Source: a virus
IMG/VR virus record: IMGVR_UViG_3300020391_000004
Location: 62,001 to 126,000 of that record
DNA: 64,000 nt
Direction: 5' to 3' (one strand)
Shown here one piece after another: positions 21,596 to 62,143 of the stretch. A model generated the notes under the pieces. That model searched no databases. It saw only the letters and a program-made list of their open reading frames with translations, and had not been told where the DNA came from. Every line of letters starts with the position of its first letter. The first letter of the stretch is position 1. A program made the position numbers and the translations under genes.

Positions 21596-22918
21596 TTAGT
21601 TCGCTCCTGCATAATATTCATTTATCATTAAAAATGTATAAAAGTGATCTAAAAGGATATGTCCTACTACCATCCAAAATATAAAAGGAATATAATTAAC
21701 TTGAGGAGTTTTCCAGGCAATAAATGTTGCAATACAAAATAAGACCATATTGAATAGTCCTTGTCCTTGTGTTGTTTCCCCTACCAAATAAGTTGTAAAA
21801 CAAAGAATAAAAAATACTACAATTTTAAGTATAGTATTATTATTAGGAACAATTTTTACAAAATGTTTTGCAAATTTAATTGCTAATGTTAGTGCTATTA
21901 GGTTTACAAGTAATAATAAATGCCACTGATTTGAAAGTAATCCTAATACTTCATTAGCACTATTTTCCCAACCTTTAATATCAAGCATTGCATAAATTAT
22001 TGCTTCACTGCCTGTTATAGGTATTCCAAACATCAATAATGGAAATAATTGTGTAATACTTCCTGCATTATTTGCAGTTTCACTGCTTGTTAAACAATAA
22101 GTATTACCAGGCTTATAATTATTTTGAATTCTTTTTTCTGCAAGATAAGATAAATGTGATGCACTAATAGTTGTTAGTCCGGGCAATAGCCCTCCTAAAC
22201 TACCTATTAAAGACCCTCTTAGTATACACCATTTATGTGCAAATAACGACTTTATTCTTAGAAACTTTTCGCGACTTAATAGTTCTTTTTGGGAATGATC
22301 TTCAGCTGAAAGCACCTCCTTCATACTTAAAAGACCTGCACATAAAGGAAAAAAATGAATACCTTGACTAAAAATTAAAATATCAAAATATGTTAATGGA
22401 ATATTTGTATTCCCACTATATCCAATATGGCATAATCCTATTGCTAAAATTATTAAAAAAACATCTAACATAAGTTTATTTTTAGTAGTCCATATTAAAC
22501 TAATTCCTACAATGGCAAACAAAACAGACTTTTCAAAACTTGTCAATGATAAACTTATAGTAGCTAATGCCATCAAACCAATAGCAATTAATCCAAATGT
22601 TGTACCTATAAAACTACCTACACCTGTCAAAAAAATTGCTTTTTGACCTTGGCCTTGTTTAGATAAATTATAACCTTCAACCACTGCAGGAAAGCTACTT
22701 GCTTCTCCTGCTATGCCGAGATATATAGCAGTTACACTTCCAAAGTATTGGGCACTACATACCATACATGTGTAGAACATTAATAGTTCAACAGGTTGTA
22801 AATCAAGCAGAAGAGGATATAGAATAGCACATGCCACAAACATTCCTACTCCAGGAACACAACCGCATATAATTCCTACTGTGCTTCCTATTAAGGCTGC
22901 TTGTAAAATTTCATACAT
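21596..22918 (-). CDS. tctA: Tripartite tricarboxylate transporter large subunit TctA
   Basis: 440 residues with about ten to twelve membrane helices. The N-terminus IGSTVGIICGCVPGVG and the loop region YLGIAGEASSFPAVVEGY match the conserved Gly/Pro-rich re-entrant signatures of TctA; a second copy of the GxLPGLTT type appears mid-protein (GSLGGLLPGLTT). TctA is the main permease of TTT systems for tricarboxylates and related acids. It is shorter than typical TctA (about 500). No TctB small membrane subunit is present next to it. Start ATG at 22918 lacks a clear ribosome binding site. Confidence 0.88.
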   Translation of the reverse strand: MYEILQAALIGSTVGIICGCVPGVGMFVACAILYPLLLDLQPVELLMFYTCMVCSAQYFGSVTAIYLGIAGEASSFPAVVEGYNLSKQGQGQKAIFLTGVGSFIGTTFGLIAIGLMALATISLSLTSFEKSVLFAIVGISLIWTTKNKLMLDVFLIILAIGLCHIGYSGNTNIPLTYFDILIFSQGIHFFPLCAGLLSMKEVLSAEDHSQKELLSREKFLRIKSLFAHKWCILRGSLIGSLGGLLPGLTTISASHLSYLAEKRIQNNYKPGNTYCLTSSETANNAGSITQLFPLLMFGIPITGSEAIIYAMLDIKGWENSANEVLGLLSNQWHLLLLVNLIALTLAIKFAKHFVKIVPNNNTILKIVVFFILCFTTYLVGETTQGQGLFNMVLFCIATFIAWKTPQVNYIPFIFWMVVGHILLDHFYTFLMINEYYAGAN

Positions 22919-22929
22919 TTAATTGTATA

Positions 22930-23817
22930 TTAGTACTGATCCCAGCCTAATTCTTTTTCCATTGTAATTTGTGTACTTTTATCAAAAGTTAATCTTAGTT
23001 TCTTTTTGTTAGTGTACACTCCGATATTGCCTGTGTTATTTTTTACATCTTCTTTCATAGAATTAGATATAGTTTTAGCAATATCATTTTTATCGTTAAA
23101 AACAAACCATGTACTTAACCATGCCCTTGTCAACTTAGAATTATTAAAATAATCTGCTAACTTAGGAATACCTTTAACTTTATCTTGTTCAATAGTTTTT
23201 AATATAATGGTATATTCATTTTTAATTTTTTGTAATCTTAAAAAGTGTCTATATGATGTCCAAACTGCATCAATTTCTTCCGATGCCATTCCTGCCCTCA
23301 TTTTTGAACTACCATTGTAACCAACGAATACATGATCAGAACCCCATGAATTATTCATTTGATTATGCCATTCTCTTTCTACAGAGCTACTGCCTGAGTA
23401 ACCAATCTTTAATCTTTTATTTTTAAAATCTTCTATTGATAATCCTTTGGTCTTTATTACCAAATATAATCCACCTACTTTACTAACTATAGGAGTTGCA
23501 CCTTTAAAACTTACATATGGACAAGCTGGATCATTTTTTAATTTACTTACCAACTGATAATAGTTTTCATAATGTGTTAAAAATGTACTGCCTTTGGCTT
23601 GTTTACTAACGACTGCAAAGCCTTTACATGCACTGCCAGGAACAATCGCATCAAGTGTAATTTTGCCATACTTACCTTGCTTACTGTCCTTAGCCATTAG
23701 TTGTGCAAAAGCATTAGTACCACCACCTGTGGATCCTGTAACAATCATTGGAATAGTTTCAGAAAAAACTTTAGTTGTAAACATAAACAAAAAAATTGCA
23801 AAAAATATTTTTTTCAT
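22930..23817 (-). CDS. tctC: TctC-like periplasmic solute-binding protein
   Basis: 295 residues with a clear signal peptide (MKKIFFAIFLFMF, cleavage near VFSETIP). The mature start IVTGSTGGGTNAFAQLMA and the later LKIGYSGSSS and GMASEEIDAVW fit the TTT-family periplasmic binding protein, which captures the ligand and hands it to TctA. It lies 12 nt upstream of tctA with a sigma70-like promoter of its own. A phage-encoded binding protein and permease together suggest increased uptake of an organic acid during infection. Confidence 0.85.
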   Translation of the reverse strand: MKKIFFAIFLFMFTTKVFSETIPMIVTGSTGGGTNAFAQLMAKDSKQGKYGKITLDAIVPGSACKGFAVVSKQAKGSTFLTHYENYYQLVSKLKNDPACPYVSFKGATPIVSKVGGLYLVIKTKGLSIEDFKNKRLKIGYSGSSSVEREWHNQMNNSWGSDHVFVGYNGSSKMRAGMASEEIDAVWTSYRHFLRLQKIKNEYTIILKTIEQDKVKGIPKLADYFNNSKLTRAWLSTWFVFNDKNDIAKTISNSMKEDVKNNTGNIGVYTNKKKLRLTFDKSTQITMEKELGWDQY

Positions 23818-23882: not shown

Positions 23883-24003
23883 CTTTAAAATTTGTTTGAA
23901 TATCGACTTATTAATTAGGATAGGGCGTTCTTGTAAGTAAAGAGTATAACTCAGGCGTCCATTTTTGTATCCACGTCTAAGAAAGGCGTTGTCGACTATA
24001 TAT
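23883..24003. other. Noncoding stretch upstream of tctC
   Basis: No ORF with a ribosome binding site is visible. On the minus strand the pentamer ACGCC occurs three times (AACGCCTTT, GACGCCTGA, AACGCCCTA). An AATAAATA late-type element sits at 24008-24001, which would give a leader of about 175 nt before tctC or a separate small RNA. Confidence 0.35.
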
Positions 24004-24880: not shown

Positions 24881-25054
24881 TTAATCTTCTTTTTTATTTG
24901 AAGCCTTAGGTCTACCTGGACCTTTTTTCCAAACACTAAGAACTGCACCTTCGGTTACTGCACCAGTGTCACACTTTTTTATTTCGCCACCTTTTTCAAG
25001 GAATTCAGTAATTTGTCTTTCATGTTCTTCAGCTTCACGTCTTGTCATTGCCAT
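24881..25054 (-). CDS. Small AT-hook-like protein, 57 aa
   Basis: ATG at 25054 has TAGGAG upstream. The product is helical and charged at the N-terminus (TRREAEEHERQ) and ends in KKGPGRPKASNKK, with a GRP core flanked by basic residues as in AT-hook DNA-binding motifs. It lies directly downstream of a leader with a strong terminator, so its expression may depend on readthrough. Likely a minor-groove-binding host-takeover or regulatory protein. Confidence 0.65.
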   Translation of the reverse strand: MAMTRREAEEHERQITEFLEKGGEIKKCDTGAVTEGAVLSVWKKGPGRPKASNKKED

Positions 25055-25081: not shown

Positions 25082-25134
25082 CAAAAAAAAATCCATAAGC
25101 CTTCTAATACGGAGTTATTAGTTGACTTATGGAT
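25082..25134 (-). terminator. Leader terminator / possible attenuator
   Basis: Minus strand: 9-bp outer stem ATCCATAAG/CTTATGGAT (25134-25126 with 25099-25091), a symmetric 4x4 internal loop, then inner 6-bp stem CTAATA/TATTAG, followed by nine T. It lies about 42 nt after the promoter start and 28 nt before the 57-residue gene. Confidence 0.8.
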
Positions 25135-25176
25135 TATCCATTTCGTATCCCCGAATACTTAATGAATTCTAATTAT
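25082..25176 (-). ncRNA. Candidate small RNA with antisense loop
   Basis: A strong promoter (25183-25211) and a strong terminator bound an approximately 95-nt transcript without an ORF. Between them is TTCGGGGATACGA (25155-25143), perfectly complementary over 13 nt to the loop of a hairpin in the leader of the gene at 34203-34436. Ends are inferred from promoter and terminator positions. Confidence 0.5.
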
Positions 25177-25182
25177 AAAAAC

Positions 25183-25211
25183 ATTATAGTGTATTTAGAG
25201 GATAAAGTCAA
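25183..25211 (-). promoter_or_regulatory. Early sigma70-like promoter
   Basis: TTGACT (25211-25206), 17-bp spacer, TATAAT (25188-25183). It drives the leader/small RNA and, by readthrough, the AT-hook-like gene. Confidence 0.75.
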
Positions 25212-34191: not shown

Positions 34192-34219
34192 ACTATAGCA
34201 CACTATATGCTTTTGTCAA
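34192..34219 (-). promoter_or_regulatory. Early sigma70-like promoter
   Basis: TTGACA (34219-34214), 16-bp spacer, TATAGT (34197-34192). It overlaps the 3' end of the upstream gene. Confidence 0.75.
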
Positions 34220-34436
34220 CCCCTCGCATATCAGCATACTCTCTACGATAGCTGTGTATACGATCTTCAGTCTCCTTGTTAGCGAAGACTCCGACATCGT
34301 TCGCAGGATCGTACTCTACATAACTACGGCGGTCATGTACTGGATGTACAAAGTCCGGCTTGCCCCATACCCGTACTGCTGATACATACTCTGTGCTGCG
34401 AAAGCCAAAGAAGTGTACTAGTCGTCCTCTATACAT
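34203..34436 (-). CDS. Hypothetical early protein, 77 aa
   Basis: ATG at 34436 has AAGGAGG upstream and is chosen over 34478, whose region is the structured leader. The product is basic with many Tyr, Arg and Asp (starts MYRGRLVHFFGFRS). Its GC content is higher than that of neighbouring early genes. Its leader contains two hairpins, one bearing the 13-nt complement of the candidate small RNA at 25 kb. Confidence 0.65.
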   Translation of the reverse strand: MYRGRLVHFFGFRSTEYVSAVRVWGKPDFVHPVHDRRSYVEYDPANDVGVFANKETEDRIHSYRREYADMRGVDKSI

Positions 34437-34522
34437 AACCGCCTCCTTGTGTAGTGCAGCACTGTGCTGGTTAAACACAGTGCCTAGTCAATCGACTTCG
34501 GGGATACGATTACGGATTGACT
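34437..34522 (-). promoter_or_regulatory. Structured 5' leader with two hairpins
   Basis: Hairpin 1: AGTCAATC/GATTGACT (34522-34515 with 34493-34486), 21-nt loop carrying TCGTATCCCCGAA. Hairpin 2: GCACTGTG/CACAGTGC (34483-34476 with 34466-34459), 9-nt loop. The ribosome binding site follows 13 nt later. Transcription should start about at the first base of hairpin 1. Confidence 0.6.
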
Positions 34523-34528
34523 ATATAC

Positions 34529-34556
34529 ATAATAGCATAATCTATATATTTGTCAA
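34529..34556 (-). promoter_or_regulatory. Early sigma70-like promoter
   Basis: TTGACA (34556-34551), 16-bp spacer, TATTAT (34534-34529), the same layout as the other early promoters. Confidence 0.75.
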
Positions 34557-60869: not shown

Positions 60870-62143
60870 TAAATTATTCCGTCTAATGGAGTTTGTAGTC
60901 TACTTTTTTTACTATACTGTTTTAAATCGCTTATATGTATTGGCTTACTGACTGTTCCAGTACCTGCAGGAATTTTGGTTGTATTTCCACCGACATTAAC
61001 AGAATTTACACGTCTAGTGTTATTTGCATTACCTATATTGACGCCTCCACTAGTAACTACATTATCGGTAATAACTCTATTACTGTTTGTATTATTTTGT
61101 ATGTTTTGATTTTTTCCAGTAATAGTGCTAATAATTCCTTTTTCGATAGACAGAGCATAGTTGTTTGCAATTTTTTCAGCCTCGCCTGTTATAGGAACTA
61201 GTATATTACTTGTTGGCTTTTTACCTGATATTAAATTATTAGCAAAAATATTAAGTGTCTCTTCGAACACATTTAGTCCATTTGGATTTTTTGTTTGATT
61301 GAATATTATTTCTGCATCTGTAATTGTGCCTATAACATTTCCATCAAATAAATCAGTAGCACGTTGCGATGTAACACTGGTTAGTGTGCCGTCTATAAAT
61401 GCAGTATCATCAGCTATTGTTGTAGCACTTAAATCACTTTTTTCTACATCATAATGTATATCACCAAATCCTCTTGGATTTATGTTATTTACAAAACCAG
61501 TAGCATATTTTACAGTTTCATATGCTAATTGCATTGTATTTTCCATTAATCCGCCATTAGCATAAGCATGTTGATCATGTGAAAAACTAGTAATAATTGG
61601 ATTTACAAGCGTGTATTCACCAAACTTATGATTTTGCATACTATAAATTTTAATGTTTTTAAAAAATCTTTTGTTTCCGCGTTGTAGTCCCCATTGTTGT
61701 TGAGTCCTATTTGCATACTTGTCACTTGTAGTGTACGCATTTCCATCTAAACTATATGTGGGATCTGCATTATAGTAAATGTAATACTTATGCCACATTT
61801 CTCTAATTACTTCTTTTGTATCATCGTGGAAACGTATTGTTATAGGCTGGTAATTAAATTTATGATGACTTTGTGTTTGTCTATTATATTGATTATGTGT
61901 TTGTACGTCTAAGGTATAGGCAGGTAAATCCGCACTTTTAACTAGTAATGGAATCTCTAATTGTGCTATTGTGTCAAATAAAGTCGCGGCCTCTGGAGTA
62001 AATTCAAATACTACATGAAATAAATTAGAATATTTAGGTTGGAGCTCATAGTTATTATCAACAAAAGTTTTAGATGCGTGTTTGTAATCACGCATCGTAT
62101 CACCTGTTGAAAATTGTGTGAGTAAAGGATTTACACTAGCCAT
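60869..62143 (-). CDS. Tail-tube-like baseplate protein (gp48/gp54 type)
   Basis: 424 residues. The N-terminal part, YSNLFHVVFEFTPEAA and KSADLPAYTLDVQTHNQYN, follows the tail-tube fold pattern also seen in gp19 (below). The C-terminal part is a long Asn/Thr/Gly-rich extension. In T4, gp48 and gp54 start the tail tube on the baseplate and share the tube fold. The C-terminal extension has no recognised domain. Confidence 0.6.
   Translation of the reverse strand: MASVNPLLTQFSTGDTMRDYKHASKTFVDNNYELQPKYSNLFHVVFEFTPEAATLFDTIAQLEIPLLVKSADLPAYTLDVQTHNQYNRQTQSHHKFNYQPITIRFHDDTKEVIREMWHKYYIYYNADPTYSLDGNAYTTSDKYANRTQQQWGLQRGNKRFFKNIKIYSMQNHKFGEYTLVNPIITSFSHDQHAYANGGLMENTMQLAYETVKYATGFVNNINPRGFGDIHYDVEKSDLSATTIADDTAFIDGTLTSVTSQRATDLFDGNVIGTITDAEIIFNQTKNPNGLNVFEETLNIFANNLISGKKPTSNILVPITGEAEKIANNYALSIEKGIISTITGKNQNIQNNTNSNRVITDNVVTSGGVNIGNANNTRRVNSVNVGGNTTKIPAGTGTVSKPIHISDLKQYSKKSRLQTPLDGII

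Follow-up and report, generated by a model that had tools for sequence, protein, structure and literature searches.

Where phage small RNAs target genes of phages, they are in most cases cis-antisense RNAs encoded by temperate phages. The P4 CI RNA, the P1/P7 c4 RNA and the CopA/CopT kissing RNAs pair with leaders via complementary hairpins and serve in immunity or copy-number control, acting on the same locus. The phage antisense RNAs lambda OOP, P22 sar and lambda aQ pair with phage mRNAs, and VpdS of phage VP882 is a trans-acting sRNA which affects both phage and host mRNAs and is Hfq-dependent in Vibrio (PMC12197685). The nearest working model that we found for the locus described here is, by analogy, IsrK of prophage Gifsy-1. 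Its short form ends at a terminator, while a longer read-through form is an mRNA; the short form works in trans and switches on translation from an inactive transcript (PMC4825925).

We identified a candidate small RNA of comparable design in a virus record of 131,614 bp (IMG/VR record IMGVR_UViG_3300020391_000004), of which positions 62,001 to 126,000 (64,000 nucleotides) make up the window described here. The phage looks marine and T4-like. The RNA locus and the gene downstream of it are composed of the following features:

25183-25211, minus strand: early-type sigma-70-like promoter, TTGACT-17-TATAAT, matching 11 of 12 consensus positions
25083-25176, minus strand: predicted small RNA or terminated leader of about 94 nt, its 5' end placed 7 nt past the -10 box
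25136-25155, minus strand: pairing region UUCGGGGAUACGA-A-AUGGAU as obtained by cofolding; the exact 13-mer is 25143-25155
25082-25135, minus strand: intrinsic terminator with a 12-bp and a 6-bp stem and a U9 tract, fold of -19.1 kcal/mol
24881-25054, minus strand: 57-aa ORF downstream of the terminator, with weak similarity to the SutA RNAP-binding domain, below the Pfam cut-off

The early promoter, the strong two-tier terminator and the ORF-free predicted transcript of about 95 nt between them had been described in an earlier note on this DNA, and all three were found; ATG, GTG or TTG frames within the predicted small RNA span 4 codons at most. The minimum free energy (MFE) of the RNA is -27.5 kcal/mol (z -4.95 for 25082-25176), with the terminator contributing most. 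The UCGGGG-loop hairpin proposed in the same note exists as GUAU-UCGGGG-AUAC, and in the MFE structure the loop is closed further to GUAUU-CGGG-GAUAC, nested in a second 7-bp stem, with the C-G-G-G loop predicted to be unpaired. With its own promoter, an intrinsic terminator and no ORF, the 25083-25176 RNA has the anatomy of a trans-encoded phage sRNA. A simple fold-based scan of the 160 nt downstream of early promoters was performed on this record and on the comparison phage Melnitz, for which tmRNA and riboswitch genes as well as 31 early promoters have been described (PMC9004378); the promoter at 25211 was the only early promoter with a strong terminator within that distance. Over the whole record, GTTGACA marks early promoters, and ATAAATA shows an approximately 10-fold enrichment ahead of start sites, which fits a late promoter of the T4 type. 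Late transcription of the small RNA from the CTAAATA within its promoter was considered and rejected, the enriched late motif here being ATAAATA. A riboswitch or known RNA family was also rejected for both the RNA locus and the leader described below, as Rfam covariance models, among them those for OOP-like RNA, C4 antisense RNA and the glutamine riboswitch, gave no match at either locus even at E-values up to 5.

The 13-mer TTCGGGGATACGA (25155-25143) is perfectly complementary to TCGTATCCCCGAA, a segment of the leader that precedes a 77-aa gene (34203-34436). This antisense match was claimed earlier together with the location of both sites on minus-strand transcripts, and the coordinates bear out both claims. 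In the complete record the 13-mer occurs only twice, at the RNA locus and inverted in the leader, and both copies lie just downstream of early-type promoters. The target locus contains:

34529-34556, minus strand: early promoter TTGACA-16-TATTAT with an extended -10 TG, assigned by promoter consensus
34437-34523, minus strand: structured leader of the 77-aa gene, 86-87 nt, with the Shine-Dalgarno sequence AAGGAGG
34485-34523, minus strand: 5' stem UAGUCAAUC/GAUUGACUA with an apical UCG-UAUCCC-CGA loop, from folding
34497-34517, minus strand: target region AUCCGU-AA-UCGUAUCCCCGAA; the exact 13-mer is 34497-34509
34458-34484, minus strand: second leader hairpin GGCACUGUGUU/AGCACAGUGCU
34203-34436, minus strand: 77-aa gene, the putative target, its start backed by homologues aligned from residue 1

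The promoter of the 77-aa gene is a strong early promoter, and its leader is long compared to the 13-59 nt of most other intergenic early leaders. The protein has no Pfam or PHROG match. Folding of the leader gave two competing structures. In one, a 9-bp 5' stem (-10.9 kcal/mol; 14 of 1000 mononucleotide shuffles were as stable) carries UCG-UAUCCC-CGA at its tip, with the UAUCCC loop predicted to be unpaired; in the other, CGUAAUCGUAUCC, which is covered by the small-RNA site, pairs with the Shine-Dalgarno sequence and the start codon. Cofolding of the two RNAs extended the 13 bp by a second 6-bp helix (AUGGAU/AUCCGU), for a total of 19 base pairs interrupted by a small internal loop, and both pairing sites can sit in hairpin loops. 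RNA-RNA interaction prediction, proposed earlier as a check, placed the leader of the 77-aa gene first among the 167 gene starts (interaction energy -32.2; next -22.2), and none of 100 shuffled small RNAs found any equally good start site. After correction for internal structure the net energy was -12.4 kcal/mol, compared to -8.1 for the next start and a background of -1.9 ± 1.9, and this value was reached by none of 300 shuffled leaders. The leader appears twice in the net-energy list, its two equal values being read as two overlapping Shine-Dalgarno patterns. These pairing statistics are somewhat optimistic, since testing began only after the match had been spotted. Our preferred interpretation, with a probability of roughly 0.42, is a predicted trans-acting phage antisense RNA or terminated leader which would pair with the 5' end of the 77-aa mRNA, possibly unmasking its start codon.

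Such an RNA would resemble IsrK in being a short terminated RNA with possible read-through and activation in trans, all of which are predictions from sequence in the present case. IsrK targets the read-through form of its own RNA, whereas the top-ranked predicted partner here is another leader at a distance of 9.3 kb. IsrK also originates from a lambdoid prophage and the phage studied here looks T4-like; the two are likened by design. With OOP, sar and aQ the predicted RNA would share that a phage-made small RNA pairs with a phage mRNA, but these RNAs are transcribed from loci opposite or adjacent to those of their targets and have long complementarity, in contrast to the trans-encoded RNA and short pairing region here. 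Trans action would be shared with VpdS, of which Hfq dependence is a feature. By analogy the RNA is a probable, unproven member of the known class of phage antisense RNAs.

Relatives were searched by protein, and 2.9 million viral contigs were scanned with exact 16-mers of both sites. The neighbourhood of the RNA locus recurs in a single contig (L026); the flanking 70-aa and 57-aa genes are kept at approximately 75% identity, and a short ORF takes the place of promoter, RNA and terminator. The 57-aa protein and its homologue in L026 weakly resemble the RNA-polymerase-binding domain of SutA (E 1.6e-4, which falls short of the Pfam cut-off). The 77-aa gene has relatives at 22 loci, none of which has this leader, the upstream sequences being different. 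Protein searches with other genes gave one locus for the 70-aa upstream gene and the 57-aa gene (L026), two for the 209-aa gene and 80 for the 125-aa gene, which adjoins the target and is also present in Melnitz-type methylophages; among phage records, only Melnitz was found for the 125-aa gene and nothing for the RNA locus. The 16-mers of the RNA site gave two hits, inside coding ORFs of unrelated phages, and those of the leader site gave five, in stretches of unrelated phages with 52-66% GC. No relative with both pairing sites was found among the contigs searched in these ways. Since the RNA locus is absent from L026, the leaders differ and the 16-mers hit elsewhere, the element looks recent or fast-evolving. 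The trans-pairing interpretation of the earlier note finds partial support, in anatomy and energy ranking, with a pairing longer than 13 nt; conservation lends it none.

Several neighbouring elements were observed in the course of these searches. Four of the contigs contain glutamine riboswitches (RF01739) upstream of the 77-aa-gene homologues on the opposite strand (L004 4874-4922, L005 and L006 4875-4923, L007 994-1042, all minus strand). The window also encodes an auxiliary transporter pair, TctA (PF01970, E 1.4e-64) with a neighbouring TctC-like protein (21596-23817, minus strand), which is present in contig L119 as well. Near these phage TctC/TctA genes a noncoding element with the pattern ACGCYTGAG-n-CTCTTTACT-n-GAACGCCC is conserved in three phage lineages (window 23913-23995, minus strand; L026 4843-4925; L119 2880-2957). 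It follows the end of a gene, precedes the next promoter and contains a GAG(C/U)/(G/A)CUC hairpin with one compensated pair; no Rfam family matched it at the gathering threshold, and an exact search for the pattern in GTDB genomes found nothing.

The bare 13-mer match is weak, no more than chance in this record, which contains 653 inverted 13-mer pairs separated by more than 200 nt; 10 of these pairs have 7 or more G/C. As inverted 13-mers are this common, the evidence lies in placement, extension and ranking and not in the match itself. Complementarity arising by chance between two structured but unrelated leaders, with no regulation in trans, would fit these counts as well as the lack of conservation in L026 and in the 22 relatives of the 77-aa gene. 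Among predicted early leaders the longest other complement is 8 nt, compared to 13 nt here, and shuffling produced at least 13 nt in 5 of 400 leader sets. The same script applied to Melnitz yielded one 13-nt pair, all others being at most 9 nt; that pair joins two promoter-like strings which lie inside genes on opposite strands according to the deposited annotation, showing that a chance 13-mer can arise between spurious sites. Coincidence, which we consider unlikely, though a serious competitor, is opposed by the location of the sites in both leaders, by the additional helix and by the rank of the pairing energy. By energy rank the pairing with the distant leader is better than chance, moderated by the shuffle and 13-mer counts. 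It is improbable that the sites instead form a DNA operator, an imperfect palindrome TTCG-N6-CGA(A) at +13 to +34 of both promoters that binds a phage regulator. The distance from both promoters is similar and the stem portion is palindromic, so that inverted copies would read alike. However, the window holds no further copy with up to two mismatches, the complete record holds one site with two mismatches, away from the listed early promoters, and neither TTCGN6CGAA nor TCGN6CGA is enriched in the record, which disfavours this idea; the non-palindromic centre is moreover conserved in the inverted sense, as RNA pairing requires. Least probable of all is a host mRNA as the real target, with the phage leader as a predicted sponge or decoy, even if many phage sRNAs act on host genes, such as PreS on dnaN (PMC12197685).

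Somewhat less doubtful than coincidence, but still unlikely, is that promoter and terminator serve the 57-aa operon as an attenuated leader with fixed or regulated read-through, its complementarity to the other leader being coincidental or secondary. The stretch from the terminator to the start of the 57-aa gene shows no further promoter, and the predicted transcript may equally be an attenuated leader of this gene; in IsrK, too, a terminated sRNA is joined with a read-through mRNA (PMC4825925). A 4-codon frame (MDNP*) ends at the terminator base, and a ribosome there could therefore hinder the terminator, but the only SD-like element of this micro-ORF is a weak GGGGA. Folding revealed no competing antiterminator, the mutually exclusive partner expected of an attenuator: the terminator forms whether the upstream pairing region is free or blocked. 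Control of the 57-aa gene by the partner RNA is for that reason unlikely according to the folding model, and the unit may be a fixed attenuator. Attenuation also leaves the top-ranked pairing unexplained.

For the preferred interpretation, pairing of the small RNA with the leader of the 77-aa gene, the promoter, the terminator, the complementarity, the pairing rank and the two leader folds come from sequence and computation. Early in infection, the promoter at 25211 would produce the terminated RNA of about 94 nt. Its GC-rich loop would meet the apical UAUCCC loop at the extreme 5' end of the 77-aa mRNA in a kissing start, after which pairing would spread to the 13 bp and the 6-bp second helix. 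As the target segment pairs with the Shine-Dalgarno sequence and start codon in one of the leader folds, the most plausible outcome of binding would be a freed start codon and increased translation. Predicted start-codon accessibility rose upon occupation of the site for 3 of 8 RNA lengths (from 0.56 to 0.99, 0.15 to 0.74 and 0.12 to 0.60); the effect was absent at the other lengths, and accessibility of the Shine-Dalgarno sequence was hardly altered. The 5'-end stability of the 77-aa mRNA could also shift, and repression, through cleavage of the duplex or a change in 5'-end stability, is almost equally plausible. Part of the RNA may read through the terminator, resulting in expression of the 57-aa gene. 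The most specific version, a two-locus early RNA switch in which a stand-alone terminated RNA activates one of the phage's own early genes in trans by kissing loops that unmask its start codon, we regard as doubtful, slightly more so than attenuation.

The two-loop design lends itself to a clean test by compensatory mutations. If the interpretation is true, the two loci would constitute a trans-acting pair operating among early genes, in a T4-like phage of streamlined marine bacteria, and RNA pairing would be used for timing within lytic infection.
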